The translations under genes and the position numbers were made by a program. The notes beneath the pieces are model-generated. The model worked only from the letters and a program-made list of their open reading frames with translations. It did not search any database and was not told the DNA's origin. From assembly GCA_014381745.1 (NCBI GenBank), contig JACNLA010000028.1:248001-312000 (forward strand): a stretch of 64,000 nt of DNA, given 5' to 3'. Origin of the DNA: Actinomycetota bacterium. Lineage in GTDB: Bacteria; Actinomycetota; Acidimicrobiia; Acidimicrobiales; MedAcidi-G1. Of this stretch, positions 5,517 to 56,495 are shown piece by piece; the stretch's first letter is position 1, and the number at the start of each line of letters is the position of its first letter.

Positions 5517-5637
5517 CGAAGCGAGGCTACCGACGGGTCGGCCCGGCGACCCGCATCCATGTCCGAGGGGTACCCGGAACCAGCGTCGGGGGCCGGTTGG
5601 CGGGCTGCCACCCGCTGGTACGCTCTCGGCGGATCTC

Positions 5638-5710
5638 GGGGCTATAGCTCAGTTGGCAGAGCGCCTCCATGGCATGGAGGAGGTCGAGGGTTCAATTCCC
5701 TCTAGCTCCA
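5638..5710 (+). tRNA. tRNA-Ala (anticodon GGC)
   Basis: A full cloverleaf can be drawn. The acceptor stem GGGGCTA pairs with TAGCTCC (one G-T pair), and the D arm is GCTC/GAGC. The anticodon stem CCTCC/GGAGG encloses loop ATGGCAT with anticodon GGC, and the T arm has loop TTCAATT. The discriminator base is A and CCA is not encoded. It sits between leuS and rsfS, both on the other strand. Confidence 0.96.
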
Positions 5711-5735
5711 CGAACCGCCCTTTCTGAAGTTCTCT

Positions 5736-6128
5736 TCAGAGTGCGAGGGGATGTCGCGGGCAGTCGCCCCAGAGGCGTTCAAGGTCGTAGAAGGCGCGCT
5801 GTTCGTCTGTGAACACATGGACCATGAATCCGCCATAGTCCATCAACACCCATTCGTTGTAGTCGGACCCCTCGATGCTCTCCGGTTTCAGATCTGCACC
5901 GATGAACACCTGCTCCTCAATCTCGTCGACGATCGCACGGACCTGACGTGTGGTAGAGCCGGCCGTGATCACAAAGAGGTCGGTCATTACCAGGACGTCG
6001 CCGACGTCGACAATCACCGTGTCGTGACCCAACTTGTCGGCGGCAGCGTCGACAGCCAGTCGGGCCAACCCGAGGTAGTCGGCAGTCGCCGTGGGATCTT
6101 CCCGGATCAGTGAGGTTTCGGAATCCAC
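5736..6128 (-). CDS. rsfS: Ribosome silencing factor RsfS
   Basis: The 130-residue protein is RsfS (Iojap family), which binds ribosomal protein L14 and blocks subunit joining when nutrients are scarce. Characteristic stretches are VIVDVGDVLVMTDLFVI, the STTRQVRAIVDEIEE helix, and the C-terminal EWVLMDYGGFMVHVFTDEQR. The length is normal. It lies 12 bases downstream of the nadD fusion gene on the same strand. A nadD - LCP-like - rsfS order is common in actinobacteria, so cotranscription is likely. Confidence 0.95.
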   Translation of the reverse strand: MDSETSLIREDPTATADYLGLARLAVDAAADKLGHDTVIVDVGDVLVMTDLFVITAGSTTRQVRAIVDEIEEQVFIGADLKPESIEGSDYNEWVLMDYGGFMVHVFTDEQRAFYDLERLWGDCPRHPLAL

Positions 6129-6140
6129 TCGGCTCTGATG

Positions 6141-7973
6141 CTAACCGGCTCTGGATGTGAAGTCCGCACCGACGACGACCGTCAGGTCGGCGACCGGGCT
6201 GGACGCCTCGTCGAAGATGACTCCGGCGTGTATGGCAACAGCCAATGCGGTTGCAGCCTGCTCCATGGCAGGATCCCTGTAGACGACACGGGTCTGGATC
6301 ACGTTGAAGTTCCTGAAGTTCCCAACCACCGCTATGTCGACACCTGCAGACCTGACAACCTGACGGGCGTAGGCGTCGATCGTCGGGTCGCCGGTCCCGT
6401 TCAAGAGGCGGACGGTCGGGGCAGAGCCGCTGTCGGGGGGAATGGGGAACGGGAACATTCGGTCAGCAATCTGATCCATTGCCACGGGGTCCGCTGCCAT
6501 CGAATCGCCCGACACGATCCACGGCGACGATTCCACTCGGATCTCACCCAGGGCCAGCACCTCGAGCAGCCGAACCATCTCCACGTCGACAGCCGGGAGG
6601 TGGGCCGAAGGCCCTGCTCCGGCTGATACCGCTGAGAGCCACGACTCCCAGAACATCGCATGTCGACGCAGGAGCCCCACGGAACCGCCTCTGTCGGGAA
6701 GTGCCAGCAGGTCAACAACGTCAGCCGCTTCGAGCGAGTTCTCGGCTGCCGAAAACCTGACAACGCTGGCGCCGTCAGCGGCCGTTTCGTAGAGGTCGTG
6801 TTTCAGGCCAATTGGCAGAGGGGACACCGGTTCGACGATATTGGTCCAACTTGTAGGCGTAAGGAGCGCCACCCCGGTGAAGTCACTTCCCAGGAGGGAA
6901 CCCAGATAGGCACGCTCGTTGGCGATTCCGTCGGTGGCGTGAAGGTCGGCAAGGCTGCAGGCATTACCCCCGCAGGCATCCAACGCAAGGCTCGGCGGTA
7001 CCACCAGGGCTGTTCCACCTCCCGAGGTCCGATCTGAAACAGCCAGAATTGTCAGCCCAACCAGGTTCGAGTCTTCATCCTCGGTCACCACCATCATCGA
7101 CCAGGTCTGCTCCACGAAGGCTTCGAAACCCGGGGCCAATGGATCGGTGACGGCCTCATGGGTCTGCCCGTCTTCACTGTTCAATATGGTCCGCAAGCCA
7201 TCCACCATTAACGTTCCCGACCAGATGACGGCCACGAGGAGAGCGATCGGGAAACCCCACCGCCACGCAGTCGCTGCCGGCGACCGGGAGCCGCTCCGGC
7301 GCGATTGCTCCTCGCCGGACCGTTTGGCACCGACGCCGGGGTCGGCCTCGCCGCTCACCGCTGAACTCTCATAGAGGCCGTAGCGGTCGATCAGGTCGGC
7401 CACGGCGTCAGGTACGTCGCTGCGGACTGACAACCCGGACTCAACCTGTCGCCTCAGACCCTCAGACGACATGTCAAGCAGGGGTGCCTCCAGCAGTTCG
7501 AAGTCCCAGCCGCTCGGGGGCCGGCCACCGTCATGGCCGGGACGATCTATTACAACGATCGCCGCATGCTGTTGCACATCGTCTGGCCGCACCCAACTCT
7601 CGAGAGAAGATGCCACATCGCTGCCGACCAGCAGGAAGAGTTCAGCCCCGGGATGGCGGCGCTCAAGCTCGCTGAGGGTGTCGGCCGTGTAGGTAGGTCC
7701 GCCCCGCTGCATTTCGAGGTCATCGGCCTCCAGCCCGTCGACCCCGTCGACTGCGGCCCTGACCATCTCGAGCCTCACCTCGGCTGGAGTCAGGCCGGAC
7801 TCCCGTGGACCCCCGACACCGGTCTTCTGCCAGGGGTCGTTTGCGACCGTCAGGAGAACAAGATCAAGATTCAGGCGGTCGCGCGCCTCGATGCCTGCCA
7901 GAACATGGCCGTTGTGCGGTGGATCGAAGGTTCCGCCGAGAACGCCGATCCGGCGGGGGTTGGTGCCGGGCAC
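6141..7973 (-). CDS. nadD: Nicotinate-nucleotide adenylyltransferase fused to a membrane-anchored LCP/LytR_C-like domain
   Basis: The 610-residue product joins two parts in one frame. Residues 1-203 form a complete NadD enzyme (NAD biosynthesis) with the nucleotidyltransferase motif GGTFDPPHNGH at 13-23 and the SSEGLR (ISSTxIR-type) motif at 169-174. A charged linker (205-235) leads to one membrane segment at about 239-258. An exported region of roughly 260-505 resembles a degenerate LCP (LytR-CpsA-Psr) domain, and residues 519-604 form a LytR_C domain (VRLLNGTG ... VVVGADF). The order predicts NadD inside the cell and LytR_C outside. In many relatives these are two adjacent genes, so fusion or a lost stop codon are both possible. 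The NadD call is firm and the LytR_C call good; the LCP resemblance is weaker. Confidence 0.9.
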   Translation of the reverse strand: MPGTNPRRIGVLGGTFDPPHNGHVLAGIEARDRLNLDLVLLTVANDPWQKTGVGGPRESGLTPAEVRLEMVRAAVDGVDGLEADDLEMQRGGPTYTADTLSELERRHPGAELFLLVGSDVASSLESWVRPDDVQQHAAIVVIDRPGHDGGRPPSGWDFELLEAPLLDMSSEGLRRQVESGLSVRSDVPDAVADLIDRYGLYESSAVSGEADPGVGAKRSGEEQSRRSGSRSPAATAWRWGFPIALLVAVIWSGTLMVDGLRTILNSEDGQTHEAVTDPLAPGFEAFVEQTWSMMVVTEDEDSNLVGLTILAVSDRTSGGGTALVVPPSLALDACGGNACSLADLHATDGIANERAYLGSLLGSDFTGVALLTPTSWTNIVEPVSPLPIGLKHDLYETAADGASVVRFSAAENSLEAADVVDLLALPDRGGSVGLLRRHAMFWESWLSAVSAGAGPSAHLPAVDVEMVRLLEVLALGEIRVESSPWIVSGDSMAADPVAMDQIADRMFPFPIPPDSGSAPTVRLLNGTGDPTIDAYARQVVRSAGVDIAVVGNFRNFNVIQTRVVYRDPAMEQAATALAVAIHAGVIFDEASSPVADLTVVVGADFTSRAG

Positions 7974-8074
7974 GTCGGTGAGGCTACCTGATCGACCATT
8001 CCACCGGCTGACACGCTCCTGACCTGCACTTCTTTGCCACTAGATACGCCTGTTTCACCGACCGGAGGACACCT

Positions 8075-8088
8075 ATGACATATGTCAT
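8075..8088. promoter_or_regulatory. Perfect 14-bp palindrome upstream of the sigma factor gene
   Basis: ATGACATATGTCAT reads the same on both strands. It sits about 160 bases before the sigma-factor start codon, in the divergent gap with the nadD fusion gene. Such a perfect palindrome could be an operator for a dimeric regulator of either gene. No family can be assigned from this alone. Confidence 0.4.
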
Positions 8089-8246
8089 GGGATCAGGTCT
8101 TCACACGGAGCCACAGTTGTGTAAGAATGTTCGCCAGACGAGGACACCGAAACAAGCATCAGAGCGGCCTGCCCTCCGTTTCCCCTTCAAATCAGCAATG
8201 CGATGTCGCGCCGCGACGTCCGTCCCGAAAGACATGTGAGCAACAA

Positions 8247-9077
8247 ATGAGTGATTCAGTAGGTCAGTACCTAAACGAGATCGGAATGGTCTCCCTCCTC
8301 AACGCCCAGGAGGAGCGCGAGCTTTCCCAGACCATCGAGGCCGGTGCAGCAGCGCGTGCCAAGAAGGAGGACGGCGAGACCGGTCGTGAGCTGGATCGTG
8401 CCATCCGTCTGGCAGCCCGGGCCAAGGACCGCTTCATCCGCTCCAACCTCCGCCTCGTCGTCAGCGTCGCGCGCCGCTACCCCCTGCCTCCCGGCATGGA
8501 GCTGCTGGACCTGATTCAGGAGGGCAACCTTGGTCTTGAGCACGCGGTCGACAAGTTCGACTGGCGCAAGGGATTCAAGTTCTCCACGTACGCCACCTTC
8601 TGGATTCGTCAGGCCATCGGTCGTGCCCTCGACCAGAAGGCCAGCCTGGTACGTCTTCCCGGCGACCGCTCGGCAAGCCTCAGGGCTGCGCTGCGCAATG
8701 TCTCCGGAAACGGCGACGAACTCGACGAGGAGCATGCACGCCTCCACCGGCTGACCACCCCCACCTCACTTGACCGCACCATCGGCGACGATGACAGCAA
8801 CGAGTTGGTAGACCTCCTCCCCGACTCCAAGCCCGGTCCGGAACACGAGGTCATGGCGATGGCCGAGAACGAGATAGCCACACAGCTCCTGGATGTGCTC
8901 GACAAGCGTGCCCGCTACGCCGTCGAACAGCGTTTCGGCATCGGCGATGGGCGCAAGCGCAGCTACCGCGAGGTAGGCGAGGACCTCGGCGTCACGGCTG
9001 AGGCCGCCCGGCGTCTCGTGAAGCGTGCGGTCAACACGGTCAGGGACCGTGCCACCGAGGTAATTGACGCAGCCTGA
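8247..9077 (+). CDS. Sigma-70 family RNA polymerase sigma factor (group 1/2-type)
   Basis: The 276-residue product has region 1.2 at its very start (VGQYLNEIGMVSLLNAQEE). Regions 2.1-2.4 follow (LRLVVSVARRYP, LDLIQEGNLGL, FKFSTYATFWIRQAIGRAL), then region 3 and a region 4 helix-turn-helix (YREVGEDLGVTAEAARRLVKRA). It lacks region 1.1 and is shorter than a housekeeping SigA. It could be a short primary-like factor or an alternative group 2 factor. I chose the ATG at 8247, where region 1.2 begins; an upstream ATG inside the palindrome would add 55 residues without sigma-like sequence. The 273-base gap to the divergent nadD fusion gene holds the promoter region. Confidence 0.9.
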   Translation: MSDSVGQYLNEIGMVSLLNAQEERELSQTIEAGAAARAKKEDGETGRELDRAIRLAARAKDRFIRSNLRLVVSVARRYPLPPGMELLDLIQEGNLGLEHAVDKFDWRKGFKFSTYATFWIRQAIGRALDQKASLVRLPGDRSASLRAALRNVSGNGDELDEEHARLHRLTTPTSLDRTIGDDDSNELVDLLPDSKPGPEHEVMAMAENEIATQLLDVLDKRARYAVEQRFGIGDGRKRSYREVGEDLGVTAEAARRLVKRAVNTVRDRATEVIDAA

Positions 9078-9082
9078 ATCGG

Positions 9083-9101
9083 CGGGCCCCACTCGGGCCC
9101 G
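9083..9101 (+). terminator. GC hairpin after the sigma factor gene
   Basis: CGGGCCC and GGGCCCG form a 7-bp perfect stem around a 5-base loop, starting six bases after the sigma-factor stop codon. No T-tract follows, so it may be a weak or factor-dependent terminator. Confidence 0.4.
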
Positions 9102-9154
9102 GCCACCGATAATCGATACGCCGCTCGACAGCGGCTACTCGTAGGCTCAACGCC

Positions 9155-10534
9155 GTGGACTCCACCGATATCACCCCCTCAGCGGCATGGTCCACCACGT
9201 CCTGGCGTGGCCATGTTGCCCACCAGCAGCCGGCCTGGCCCGATGCCGCTGCCCACCAGGCCGTCGTGGACCGACTCGCCACCATGCCGCCCCTGGTGTT
9301 CGCCGGCGAGGCCCGCGAGTTGACCGATCAGTTGGCGGCCGTCGCACGAGGCGAGGCTTTTCTGCTTCAGGCAGGCGACTGCGCCGAGTCCTTTGAGACC
9401 TCTGCTGATTCCATCCGCGACCGTCTCCGGGTGATACTCCAGATGGCCGTGGTTCTTACCTACTACACGGGCGTGCCGGTCGTGAAGGTAGGTCGCATTG
9501 CAGGTCAGTTCGCCAAGCCACGAAGCAGCGACACCGAGACCGTCGACGGGGTGGAGTTGCCATCCTTTCGGGGTCACATAATCAACGACACCGCCTTTAC
9601 GCACGGTGACCGGCTACCCGACCCGGAGCGCTTGATCACCGCCTACAACAGAGCGGCGTCAACGCTGAACCTCCTTCGTGCATTCACCAAGGGAGGTTTC
9701 GCGTCACTCTCCAGCGTCCACCAGTGGAACAGGGAGTTTGTGGCCGACAGCCCTGCCGGCCGGCGCTACGAGACGATGGCCGACGAGATCGACCGGGCCG
9801 TCCAGTTCATGGAGGCCTGTGGAATATCCGGCGAGACGCTCGCTGAACTGCGACAGGTCGACTTCTACACCAGCCACGAGGCTCTCCTCCTCGGCTACGA
9901 GGAGGCCCTCACCCGTCAGGACTCCCTTACGGGCGGATGGTACGACTGCTCGGCCCACATGCTCTGGATCGGGGAACGCACCCGCCAACCCGATGGTGCC
10001 CATGTCGAGTTCCTGAGAGGCGTCAACAACCCGATCGGCTGCAAGGTCGGACCTACGGCAACCGCCGAGGAGTTGTTGGCCCTCTGCGAGGCCCTCGACC
10101 CTGAGCGAACGCCGGGGCGTCTCACGTTCGTGACCCGAATGGGAGCCAACAAGGTTGTCGACCTTTTGCCTCCCCTGCTGTCGGCGGTCTCCGATGCAGG
10201 CCACCAGCTTGTCTGGGCCTGTGACCCGATGCATGGCAACACGTTCACCGCCGACGATGGGCACAAGACCCGCCACTTCGATGATGTTCTAGCCGAGGTT
10301 TCCGGCTTCTTCGCTGCGCACAGGTTCGCCGGAACCAATCCCGGCGGGGTCCACCTGGAGTTGACTGGTGACGATGTCACCGAGTGTCTGGGCGGCGGCG
10401 CCGAGGTGCTGACCGAGGACCTCGCAAGCCGTTACGAGACCATGTGTGACCCCCGCCTGAACGGAACTCAAAGCGTCGACTTGGCATTCAGGTTGGCTGA
10501 GTTGCTCCGCGACTCCCCCTCCTCAGGCACCTGA
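9155..10534 (+). CDS. aroG: 3-deoxy-7-phosphoheptulonate synthase, class II
   Basis: The 459-residue enzyme condenses phosphoenolpyruvate and erythrose 4-phosphate in the first step of the shikimate pathway. It belongs to the class II (plant/actinobacterial) type. Marks include LQAGDCAESF near residue 75, VVKVGRIAGQFAKPRS, FTKGGFASL, RGVNNPIGCKVGP, and the C-terminal WACDPMHGNT and GGVHLELTGDDVTECLGG. The cysteine in GDCAE and the His/Glu/Asp metal ligands are present. The start is a GTG (MDSTDITPSAAW), the usual region for the family. The gene is preceded by a 77-base gap after the sigma gene and converges on the VWA gene. Confidence 0.96.
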   Translation: MDSTDITPSAAWSTTSWRGHVAHQQPAWPDAAAHQAVVDRLATMPPLVFAGEARELTDQLAAVARGEAFLLQAGDCAESFETSADSIRDRLRVILQMAVVLTYYTGVPVVKVGRIAGQFAKPRSSDTETVDGVELPSFRGHIINDTAFTHGDRLPDPERLITAYNRAASTLNLLRAFTKGGFASLSSVHQWNREFVADSPAGRRYETMADEIDRAVQFMEACGISGETLAELRQVDFYTSHEALLLGYEEALTRQDSLTGGWYDCSAHMLWIGERTRQPDGAHVEFLRGVNNPIGCKVGPTATAEELLALCEALDPERTPGRLTFVTRMGANKVVDLLPPLLSAVSDAGHQLVWACDPMHGNTFTADDGHKTRHFDDVLAEVSGFFAAHRFAGTNPGGVHLELTGDDVTECLGGGAEVLTEDLASRYETMCDPRLNGTQSVDLAFRLAELLRDSPSSGT

Positions 10535-51777: not shown

Positions 51778-51880
51778 CAGCGAGTCGAAATGAGCAGTCG
51801 CCATCCATTCCGGCACCCTCATCGGAGAGATCCGGCGAGGCGGCATCGGTAGAGCACAATCCTGCCACCTGCGTTGCATA

Positions 51881-51895
51881 TGGGAACGATTCCCA
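51881..51895. promoter_or_regulatory. Zur-like operator in the ZIP transporter promoter
   Basis: TGGGAA-CGA-TTCCCA is an interrupted palindrome with perfect 6-bp arms, of the length and style of actinobacterial Zur boxes (TGA/TGG...TTCCCA/TCA with a 3-base centre). It fits exactly between a possible -35 (TTGCAT, 51874-51879) and a -10 (TTATCT, 51896-51901). The TSS would fall at or next to the ATG at 51910, giving a leaderless mRNA. Zinc repression is inferred. Confidence 0.55.
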
Positions 51896-51909
51896 TTATC
51901 TTTTCCCAC

Positions 51910-52773
51910 ATGGATCCCATCTTCTTGTCCCTGTTGATTGTCGTCGCCTCCCTAGGGCCGGGCCTGCTGCCACGGGTGTTCGCCGACAGGGTCTCGTCGA
52001 AGGGTCTGGCGGACCTGACCGGCGTCGCATCCGGCCTGCTGCTGACCTCGGCGTTCCTCATCGTTGTCCCGGAGGGATTCCACACGGCTACCGCAGGTGA
52101 CGACACATTGGCTTCAGATCCCGTGGTGCTGGGCCTTGCTGTCCTGGCCGGATTCGGATTGTTGTTGGCGTTGGAGGGCCTGGGAATCGGCCACGCCGTC
52201 CACGAGGAACACCACGACAACGCCACCGGACACGGTCACCAACACGTGCACCACCCTTCCTCGGGGCGGGTGCTCGCAATCGGGCTGTCAGTGCATGCCC
52301 TGGCAGATGGCGTCGCTATCGGGGCGGCAGCCGCATCCGGTGAGACGTCGTTCTCGCTGCTAGTGGCCTTTGCGGTGCTCGTTCACCGCGTTCCGGTAGC
52401 GCTGAGCCTCGGGGTGTTCCTGCTCCACCAGGCGGGTGGACGCAGGTCGGCCCTGACCGGCCTCCTCCTGTTCACCCTCGCCACACCGGTTGCCCTCGTC
52501 CTCTCATACCTGGTGCTAGACGGCGCAGATGAATCCATCCTGGCCCTCGTGCTGCTCTTCTCGGCTGGGACCTTCATCTACGTGGCCACGGTCGACACCC
52601 TGCCGGCCGTCCACAATCCGACCACCGGCCGACGCTCGGTGCGCAACGTGCTGGCTGGCGCTGCGGCGCTCTCCTTAGTCCTGATACTGCTGAGCAGCGC
52701 TGGGGTGTTGAACCACAGCCACCACGAGGGCGAAGGCCACAACGACGACGCTCACACCGAAGAGAGTCATTGA
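51910..52773 (+). CDS. ZIP-family metal (zinc) transporter
   Basis: The 287-residue membrane protein has seven to eight membrane segments. A His-rich cytoplasmic loop lies near residues 95-120 (HEEHHDNATGHGHQHVHH). The metal-path motifs are LSVHALADGVAIGAA and LVHRVPVALSLG, and the C-terminal tail is again His-rich (NHSHHEGEGHNDDAH). These are marks of ZIP importers for Zn or related metals. I start at ATG 51910, which would make the mRNA leaderless; frame-open codons further upstream (TTG 51874, ATG 51880) would place the operator inside the gene. The next gene lies 274 bases away on the other strand. Confidence 0.88.
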   Translation: MDPIFLSLLIVVASLGPGLLPRVFADRVSSKGLADLTGVASGLLLTSAFLIVVPEGFHTATAGDDTLASDPVVLGLAVLAGFGLLLALEGLGIGHAVHEEHHDNATGHGHQHVHHPSSGRVLAIGLSVHALADGVAIGAAAASGETSFSLLVAFAVLVHRVPVALSLGVFLLHQAGGRRSALTGLLLFTLATPVALVLSYLVLDGADESILALVLLFSAGTFIYVATVDTLPAVHNPTTGRRSVRNVLAGAAALSLVLILLSSAGVLNHSHHEGEGHNDDAHTEESH

Positions 52774-54648: not shown

Positions 54649-56043
54649 ATGCCCAATACCGGCCACTTCTTCCTTCTCGCTGTCCTTTTGTCCTCCTGCG
54701 CCGGGGGTCCGGAAGCATCGCCGGCGCCTGACACGACCTCTGCCGCAAGCACAACAGCAGGCACCACAACCGCGCCTATAACAGCTCCCGCAGTGACGAC
54801 GGCCCCACCGAGTACGGCTGTTCCGACAACCTCCGCACTGCCAGCGTCCACAACAGCAGCCACGACCACATCCGCTCCAGACGCCACGACGACAACCACG
54901 ACAAGCACGACAACGACGTCAACCCCAACTTCCTCCACAGCACCGCCCTCGACAACTCCCCCTGAAACCACCGCTACCCCGACAACCACGACGACAACCA
55001 CGACAATCCCGCCACCCACGGACCCGCCGGGCACAACGGTCGCCTGCGGCGACGGCGACACCTACCGCTACTGCGTTGCGGCTGGAGCACCCATTGCGCC
55101 AGCTGGAACCGACGTGTGGGGGCAGTTGACCGGCTATTCGCCCGAGGTCCTGTGCGCCTCGGACCTCGACAACCAGGTGTGTGAGCTCCTCACTGAGACA
55201 CTCCTCGTAGCGGCAGCCGAGTGGGGCAACTACGGACCCACCGAGTACTGGGTGATGGGTATAGACGAGGAGGCTGCCATAGACCTGATAGGCGCCAACT
55301 GTGACAGGCGGGCTGCAGCAGGCCAGCAATCTCGGAGTTACTGCATGACCCACAACACGGCCGACAGCGAGCACAATATGATCTCCTATCAGGCTCTTGG
55401 TGCCGAGGCAGTCGCAGTTGGGCGGCCCAGCGGCTCGGCCGGGAGAAACGGCCAGCGCGACTGGAACATCCACTTCTTCGCCACTTCAATTCCTTACGCC
55501 TTCGCCGGCATGTTCGACCTTCCCTACGCTGACGAGCAAAAGACCGTCTTCCACGAGTACTTCCACGCCGTCCAGCACGCCCACATCCAGACACGCGACT
55601 TTGACGAACGCAGAAGCATGATGGGCCCAACCTGGTTTGTCGAAGGTGGAGCCGAGTTCATGGCCCAGACCGCCTCGCAACGCATGCGCGACTCAGGCGC
55701 TCTGAGAGCGTCCGACTGGAACCCCCTCACCGAACGGATGACCTGGCCAATGGAAGAGGTCAAGGAATGGATGTCATCCAATCCCGGGGCTTCAGCCTCA
55801 CAGATTCCATACGGACCGGATCAGGGCATTGCCTACAGTTACGGCCTCTGGGCCCACGCCTGGCTGGCCGACAGGTTCGGACCCGACGCTCTGCTTGGCT
55901 CCTACTACCCGCGTTTGAGCGACCTCGGCTTTGAGGGCGCCTTCCAGAACGCCTACGACATGAGCACCACAGAGTTTCTGGCCGAGTTCGACCAGTTCCT
56001 CCTGCTGCCAATCCAGGAGCAGTTGGAGATCCTCCCCGGGTAG
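54649..56043 (+). CDS. Thr-rich-stalk lipoprotein with HEXXH metallopeptidase-like domain
   Basis: The 464-residue protein begins with a lipoprotein signal (FFLLAVLLSSC, lipid cysteine at residue 17). A Thr/Pro/Ser-rich stalk follows to about residue 125, long enough to span the wall. The C-terminal domain has HEYFH at residues 302-306 (HEXXH zinc site) and WFVEGGAEF at 329-337, where E332 or E336 would be the third ligand. This is the gluzincin pattern seen in peptidase MA-like and related families. Four to six Cys in the domain could form disulfides. The substrate is unknown. The next gene (PPOX family) starts 29 bases later on the same strand. Confidence 0.8.
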   Translation: MPNTGHFFLLAVLLSSCAGGPEASPAPDTTSAASTTAGTTTAPITAPAVTTAPPSTAVPTTSALPASTTAATTTSAPDATTTTTTSTTTTSTPTSSTAPPSTTPPETTATPTTTTTTTTIPPPTDPPGTTVACGDGDTYRYCVAAGAPIAPAGTDVWGQLTGYSPEVLCASDLDNQVCELLTETLLVAAAEWGNYGPTEYWVMGIDEEAAIDLIGANCDRRAAAGQQSRSYCMTHNTADSEHNMISYQALGAEAVAVGRPSGSAGRNGQRDWNIHFFATSIPYAFAGMFDLPYADEQKTVFHEYFHAVQHAHIQTRDFDERRSMMGPTWFVEGGAEFMAQTASQRMRDSGALRASDWNPLTERMTWPMEEVKEWMSSNPGASASQIPYGPDQGIAYSYGLWAHAWLADRFGPDALLGSYYPRLSDLGFEGAFQNAYDMSTTEFLAEFDQFLLLPIQEQLEILPG

Positions 56044-56072: not shown

Positions 56073-56495
56073 GTGGCCGAAATGACCGACGTCCAGCGCG
56101 ACGAGTTCCTCACCGACGTGAGGGTGGCAGTCCTCGTTATAGAGCGCTCCGACAAGGCTCCCCTCTGCGCCCCCGTCTGGTACCGCTACGTGGACGGCAC
56201 CTTCGAGGTCACCATGGACGACGACTCAGCCAAGGTCGTGCTCCTCCGGCGTTCCGGGCGGGCAAGCATCTGCGTTCAAGACGAGTCACCGCCCTACAGC
56301 TACGTCACCGTAGAGGGCTCGGTCACGGTTGAGTCCCTGGCCGGCCCCAGACGCCACAACCTGATCCTGGAGATGGCCACCCGCTACCTCGGCGACGAGG
56401 CCGGCCGCCACTACGCCGATGGGTTCTCCCCCGATGACGACAGCGGGGCACTAATGACCCTGCGTCCGCGTCGCTGGCAGACCGCTATGTACTGA
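56073..56495 (+). CDS. Pyridoxamine 5'-phosphate oxidase-family protein
   Basis: The 140-residue protein shows the split-barrel flavin-binding fold: RVAVLVIERSDKAPLCAPVWYRYVDGTFEVTM, then GRASICVQDESPPYSYVTVEGSV. In actinobacteria many such proteins use F420 or FMN rather than making pyridoxal phosphate, and a specific role cannot be given. The start is a GTG; an ATG three codons later is possible. It converges on the Ddn-like gene. Confidence 0.85.
   Translation: MAEMTDVQRDEFLTDVRVAVLVIERSDKAPLCAPVWYRYVDGTFEVTMDDDSAKVVLLRRSGRASICVQDESPPYSYVTVEGSVTVESLAGPRRHNLILEMATRYLGDEAGRHYADGFSPDDDSGALMTLRPRRWQTAMY

Follow-up and report, generated by a model that had tools for sequence, protein, structure and literature searches.

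Collagenases of peptidase family M9, such as ColG, ColH, and ColT, possess an activator domain. For ColG, the residues His523, Glu555, Tyr599, and Tyr607 are named in the excerpt of PMC9574867 considered here, which also describes a phosphonate inhibitor that touches Glu555 and Tyr607, and a Gln situated one turn after the HExxH motif of collagenases steadies the zinc histidines according to an excerpt of PMC3711286. A tested precedent for a collagenase-related gluzincin that is displayed off the cell is flagellinolysin, for which the available part of PMC5595980 singles out an Ala three residues beyond the ligand Glu. In the present analysis, we compare with these systems a gene from the window, i.e., the whole stretch of 64,000 nucleotides that was analyzed, whose product seems to join an active site of this kind to a lipid anchor and a long stalk. 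Its features are the following:

54649..56043, + strand: lipoprotein metallopeptidase gene, 464 aa plus stop, ATG start
54649..54699, + strand: predicted lipoprotein signal peptide with lipobox LLSSC (residues 13-17; codon of Cys17 at 54697-54699)
54700..55038, + strand: Thr/Pro/Ser/Ala-rich stalk (residues 18-130, 113 aa, 88% of them Thr, Pro, Ser, or Ala)
55039..56040, + strand: predicted gluzincin catalytic domain (residues 131-464, equal to 1-334 in domain numbering)
55552..55566, + strand: HEYFH, with presumed zinc ligands His302 and His306 and general base Glu303; aligned with HEYTH of ColG
55633..55659, + strand: WFVEGGAEF, with Glu332, presumably the third ligand of zinc, and Ala335; aligned with WFDEGTAEF of ColG
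55834..55836, + strand: Tyr396 (domain Y266), candidate transition-state tyrosine

Lipid anchor, stalk, and their variation among relatives

The hydrophobic N-terminus of the protein (residues 1-17, MPNTGHFFLLAVLLSSC) terminates in a lipobox-like LSSC, and from this signal peptide, which closes with the Cys of a lipobox, lipidation is predicted. Its n-region is devoid of Lys and Arg, and that of the nearest relative, L002, contains one Lys. Thr accounts for 47 of the 113 residues of the stalk, which is unique in the window, as no other ORF of at least 100 codons in the six frames contains a 60-residue stretch with at least 75% Thr/Pro/Ser/Ala and 25% Thr. The lipid anchor and the stalk of about 100 residues that had been proposed in the sequence-only reading are therefore both borne out. 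Two short tandem repeats of DNA occur within the coding sequence of the stalk; phase variation by way of them was considered and dropped, because the repeats are few and short and because a broken copy in the same genus (G527) shows no signal peptide in any frame read. A stalk glycosylated in the PMT manner, i.e., O-mannosylated, is unsupported as well, since PMT (PF02366) found no match in the window's genome, which is 95.86% complete, in a search that was positive for 8 of 14 controls. A match to a PHROGs tape-measure protein over residues 23-156 (E 6.5e-5), mostly within the stalk, was taken as low complexity, and a scan for promoters and terminators gave nothing above shuffled controls.

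Comparison with L002, which belongs to the same genus and whose ORF is identical in reading to that of G488, reveals 80% identity for the domain and 46% for the stalk. The dN/dS ratios for this one pair are 0.20 for the domain and 0.28 for the stalk, whose synonymous sites are almost saturated with changes, and point to purifying selection on the domain between the window protein and L002.

A loose detector finds a lipobox-like N-terminus in 47 of the 52 family ORFs whose 5' end is closed, counting that of the window. Twelve of the 47 have no ATG at the expected distance and need another start codon, and the early Cys picked in L008 and L049 is followed by a better lipobox. Among the five ORFs it missed, L038 displays a plain lipobox by eye, L045 is seemingly cut, L048 is the broken copy, L017 (from a viral contig) carries just a Sec signal, and L004 is devoid of a lipobox. 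The segment between Cys and domain, counted with a domain boundary slightly unlike that used for the window stalk, extends over 10 to 393 residues in the relatives and consists of 16-82% Thr/Pro/Ser/Ala; as it varies so freely, the family is not defined by a Thr/Pro stalk. Judging from these N-termini, anchoring to the membrane is general in the family, whereas the Thr-rich stalk is not. Two contigs of IMG/VR (L016, 4386-5354, and L017, 4440-5414) encode a secreted relative that has a Sec signal but lacks a lipobox, and the neighbors of L016 resemble, by eye, genes of actinobacterial phage (ribonucleotide reductase, wall-binding peptidase, and nuclease). A relative of 716 residues (L013, 1489-3636) has a long region N-terminal to the peptidase domain; a Pfam comparison up to E 0.01 yielded no match for it.

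Catalytic residues across the family

The family was collected as 84 domain matches (E <=1e-3) in the ORFs of 72 loci, which were reduced to 67 domains by removal of sequences with more than 95% identity. These 67 include fragments, split hits, and weak motif-only members, and for each site only the sequences covering it were counted. The HExxH motif (domain H172, E173, and H176) is unbroken in 61 of 61 covering domains and the ligand Glu (E202) is kept in all 62, while the Gln one turn past HExxH (Q179) is found in 59 of 61, and the Ala three residues past the ligand Glu (A205), the same Ala as in flagellinolysin, in 61 of 62. The candidate transition-state residue Y266 is Tyr in 50 of 57 covering domains, Phe in three, and something else in four. 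At Y258 (residue 388), which corresponds to a Tyr599-like position, Tyr occurs in only 32 of 56, and position 206, a second-shell site after the third ligand, is Glu or Asp in only 37 of 62. Two further positions, C88 (Cys in 46 of 50) and C102 (Cys in 48 of 51), form a conserved pair that would suit an oxidizing exterior. The unbroken state of the motif may owe something to selection, as the domains were collected by a profile that rewards the motif.

The window protein carries HExxH and, on the following helix, the downstream ligand Glu of gluzincins, and from these zinc binding is predicted. A surface lipoprotein of the gluzincin type with intact catalytic residues, as had been suggested from HEYFH and WFVEGGAEF, is well supported by the sequence, in which both motifs are present, and catalytic activity at the cell surface seems likely. 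A surface protein that is catalytically dead or non-proteolytic, for example an adhesin that keeps the gluzincin fold, might be suspected from the replacement of Tyr396 in 7 of 57 covering domains, but the intact HExxH (61/61) and ligand Glu (62/62) make such a protein very improbable.

Distribution, genomic context, and proposed role

Relatives were drawn from GTDB contigs (three loci) and viral contigs (two loci). Genomes with a match number 49 of 395 in the class, where at most five candidates were scored per genome, 7 of 198 in the order, and 17 of 48 in the family, some of these matches being short or weak. A profile search throughout the phylum matches 18 of 396 genomes; the best match outside the class (E 7e-12) covers 157 profile positions and the others 49-123, and since this coverage is short, full-length members are not seen outside the class among these 396 genomes. 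Three of the seven genomes of the window's genus contain a match, among them G527, in which the 5' end of the copy is broken, the stalk being out of frame and a signal peptide not apparent. As the gene is absent from four of the seven genomes and broken in a fifth, it is dispensable there. Searches with the window domain up to E 0.01 gave no match in 50,697 phage records or in plasmid records, and an Actinomarina-like query found nothing in viral contigs.

Matches also occur in a related family with genomes of about 1 Mb (f65), where 31 of 42 genomes match the A1 profile and 33 match the A4 profile, two of the latter weakly, and where all eight high-quality genomes match both. By the A4 profile, the number of matches per genome ranges from 0 to 11 in f65, with 11 in G294 and nine, one of them a fragment, in G223. 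An entire contig of 7,012 bases (L064, G294:C14) consists of six head-to-tail HExxH ORFs, the last one truncated by the contig end, and clusters of two or three paralogues are found in L065-L070, some with HExxH ORFs of other families interspersed. A different HExxH family, with the motif GDPxIHExxHxxNH, occurs among or near the f65 paralogues in L069 (5000-6274), L070 (1060-2337), and L068 (3-1376), and its ORF in L069 shows only a weak match to Peptidase_M90. A tree of 50 rows, calculated with a warning of long branches, mixes paralogues of the window's family with those of f65 (L015 with L064/L067, L071 with L024/L026, and the second domain of L003 with L043), suggesting that several subfamilies predate the split between the two families or moved between them. 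The f65 loci have a GC content of 32-34%, that of Ca. Actinomarinales is about 32.5% according to the portion of PMC7771536 considered, and judging from genome size, GC content, and class, f65 probably represents Ca. Actinomarinales.

A different way of multiplying the domain is encountered in L003 (Acidimicrobiales bacterium BH16, 5632-10109), in which an ORF of 866 aa contains two catalytic domains with a Thr/Pro-rich linker between them; the ORF that follows has one catalytic domain and the beginning of another, which the contig edge cuts off. The contig of L003 is that of G181 from the window's family, which suggests that the window's order is Acidimicrobiales. This relative would represent an alternative build, in which a single protein carries catalytic domains in a row, connected by Thr/Pro linkers. 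Such tandem domains, together with the divergent tandem paralogues and the secreted relative on two IMG/VR contigs, might be read as signs of a defensive or competitive surface protease directed against phage, bacteriocins, or proteins of grazers or neighbors, the arrays being the product of an arms race. We regard this as quite improbable, as the single pair tested is under apparent purifying selection and the phage records, at E up to 0.01, contain no match to the window domain.

In L004 (4610-6948 on a Rhodobacteraceae contig), a relative with 39% identity, PG_binding_1 (PF01471, 30.3 bits against a cut-off of 23) takes the place of lipobox and stalk, so that, in this case, the domain apparently acts next to the wall. 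The ORF lies about 270 bases downstream of one that was read by eye as an IS transposase, which suggests lateral transfer. L004 would agree with a peptidase for envelope maintenance that trims the cell's own surface proteins or acts within the wall, the stalk providing reach through the peptidoglycan. Such housekeeping is nevertheless ill-suited to a presence as patchy as 3 of 7 genomes in the genus and to a copy number as loose as 0 to 11 in f65, and the proteins of eight window neighbors have no counterpart beside relatives outside the genus save one weak match, in a tblastn search against loci that mostly include only about 1.5 kb of flank. An envelope role is therefore unlikely in our view.

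Immediate neighbors of the window gene include one for a PPOX-like F420-type oxidoreductase (56073-56495), 29 bases downstream, which recurs in loci L002/L019 and L048 of the same genus; it was considered as a functional partner, but is not found beside other relatives in the tblastn search with its mostly short flanks, and no link is claimed. Two genes and about 1.9 kb separate the presumed zinc peptidase from a ZIP-family metal transporter encoded upstream (51874-52773), a proximity that is probably due to chance. The eight window proteins scanned comprise no amino-acid or peptide transporter, and the window's genome holds two peptide-binding-type proteins (SBP_bac_5). A second, weak HExxH relative in this genome (L063, 1333-2685, G000:C13) has a lipobox-like N-terminus and gives no Pfam match up to E 0.01. 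It adjoins genes for a branched-chain amino-acid ABC permease and an ABC ATPase on the opposite strand, an arrangement that is only suggestive of a link to feeding.

Considering all of this jointly, we lean towards a surface-tethered, lipid-anchored, collagenase-like gluzincin endopeptidase that feeds amino-acid uptake. In what we take to be a single-membrane actinobacterial cell of the Acidimicrobiales kind, the protein would, after export and lipidation at Cys17, stay attached to the outside of the cytoplasmic membrane, and its flexible Thr/Pro stalk would allow the domain to be located within the wall or outside it; it may be wall-spanning, as in the sequence-only reading. His302, His306, and Glu332 would hold zinc, Glu303 would activate water, Tyr396 would stabilize the tetrahedral intermediate, and the domain would cleave extracellular proteins or long peptides. 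With the enzyme tethered, the products would be freed beside the cell's own transporters for amino acids and peptides. We infer this nutritional role, along with zinc binding, activity, and a location outside the membrane; the feeding role draws indirect support from the multiple copies and arrays in genomes of about 1 Mb, the tethering, and the auxotrophy and preference for exogenous amino acids reported for Ca. Actinomarinales.

The usual picture of streamlined marine bacteria is that they live on small dissolved molecules. It is possible, if on balance doubtful, that an undescribed family of tethered collagenase-like enzymes has been multiplied in streamlined ocean actinobacteria, namely Ca. 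Actinomarinales, as a protein-digesting apparatus supplying amino acids that these cells cannot make. If so, some streamlined marine bacteria would attack protein directly and retain the products at the cell, as may be envisaged for the genome of about 0.9 Mb with 11 matches. Ca. Actinomarinales, as distinct from the window's organism, are reported to be auxotrophic for Arg, His, and Trp and to prefer exogenous amino acids, and a cyanophycinase is reported for them (PMC7771536, in the part considered), while the words peptidase, protease, lipoprotein, secreted, proteolytic, and collagenase are absent from the main text of that paper. Literature searches for peptidases, proteases, or lipoproteins of Actinomarina and for metalloprotease-lipoproteins of Acidimicrobiia, which covered largely non-subscription literature, did not bring up the family among the matches listed.

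Relationship to described gluzincin families

The window protein passes no cut-off of the curated Pfam and NCBIfam libraries, and its domain alone finds no PDB sequence up to E 10. With the Pfam model of M9 (PF01752), the domain reaches 21.5 bits against a cut-off of 26 and the whole protein 20.6 bits, a sub-threshold match with an E-value of 3e-4. The A4 profile, composed of 50 domains, i.e., 49 of the 67 with at least 230 profile positions plus L016, and with the window's own row representing L001, matches the chains of ColG, ColH, and ColT in the PDB with E-values from 1.9e-4 (ColG) to 9.3e-3. In the alignment with ColG, the HExxH of the family, the Gln that follows it by three residues, W..EG.AE, and Y..G coincide with their collagenase equivalents. 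Counting along the HMMER alignment, anchored on His523 and Glu555, equates domain Y266 with Tyr607 and Y258 with Tyr599 of ColG; His523 is presumably the first His of HExxH, which agrees with the spacing to Glu555. By alignment, the active-site set of M9 (HExxH, Gln, ligand Glu, and a Tyr607-like Tyr) is thus present in the family. M9 (20 members) and M61 (17 members) are the commonest Pfam matches of the 50 members up to E 1, and Peptidase_MA_2 (PF13485) was set aside with just 2 of 50 members at E <=1. The family had earlier been called unfamiliar, which is true of the curated databases, although a distant kinship to M9 is recognizable. If our reading is correct, a protein family left blank by the curated libraries searched would obtain a name.

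A model of the domain, built from eight sequences, has a pTM of 0.81 and a mean pLDDT of 77, and its helices 166-181 and 198-219 carry HExxH and the ligand Glu, respectively. Residues 130-164, which directly precede the active-site helix and in which the Gly-Gly motif ahead of the edge strand and the calcium-site Glu of collagenases would be expected, have pLDDT values below 50 and are poorly covered by alignments. A second model, for the diverged second catalytic domain of L003, is uninformative (pLDDT 49, pTM 0.53). Foldseek returned 66 rows up to E 10, none below 1e-3, led by ColT, ColH, M1 enzymes, and lugdulysin, with TM-scores, normalized by the model, of 0.41-0.48 in the first 16 rows. 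The chains found by Foldseek were re-examined with VIA-align, and as the matches to M30, M1, and M9 all represent related gluzincin folds, the fold class is clear. That the His and Glu residues come together in the predicted fold, on which the sequence-only reading had made its proposal depend, is favored indirectly by structural alignments that span the active-site helices of the model. Its view that the domain is not recognized beyond the gluzincin pattern was too pessimistic, given that the profile reaches M9 via the active site and that the model matches M30, M1, and M9. Which named family appears closest depends on the method, namely M9 by sequence and M30 by the modeled structure.

By structure, lugdulysin (M30) is the top VIA-align match (Z 14.1, rmsd 4.0, 237 residues), but it differs in sequence with 13% identity and an E-value of 0.26 for the A1 profile over the HExxH region, and it is not among the matches listed with the A4 profile. 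Catalytic domains of M1 aminopeptidases and leukotriene A4 hydrolase follow with Z 11.1-13.1 over 207-238 residues. M1 aminopeptidases give weak matches to the A4 profile from HExxH to Tyr (E 0.05 and above), but only 1 of 50 members reaches the Pfam model of M1 (E 0.019), and the window protein lacks the large additional domains of M1 enzymes. The putative metalloproteases of the MXAN_6640 family (NF045524) are matched by 18 of 50 members at E <=0.1, the best at 7.5e-7, whereas the window domain, with 19.1 bits, stays short of the cut-off of 140. Flagellinolysin (NF033876), which is a gluzincin related to collagenases and lies within flagellin, is similar in that a compact collagenase-like domain is placed outside the cell, and its model matches 44 residues of the window protein over HExxH with E-values of 1.9e-6 to 4.7e-6. 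It differs in that the window protein reaches 27.6 bits against a cut-off of 205 and is predicted to be anchored by lipid and stalk instead of forming part of a flagellin. The M9 collagenases, i.e., ColG, ColH, ColT, and those of Grimontia and Vibrio, share HEYxHxxQ, W(F/Y)xEGxAE, the downstream Tyr, and the fold match (Z 11.4 for the Vibrio collagenase against the model of the window domain). In contrast to them, the window domain stays below the Pfam cut-off for M9 and, as lipobox and stalk are all that precedes it, is devoid of an activator domain of the collagenase type.
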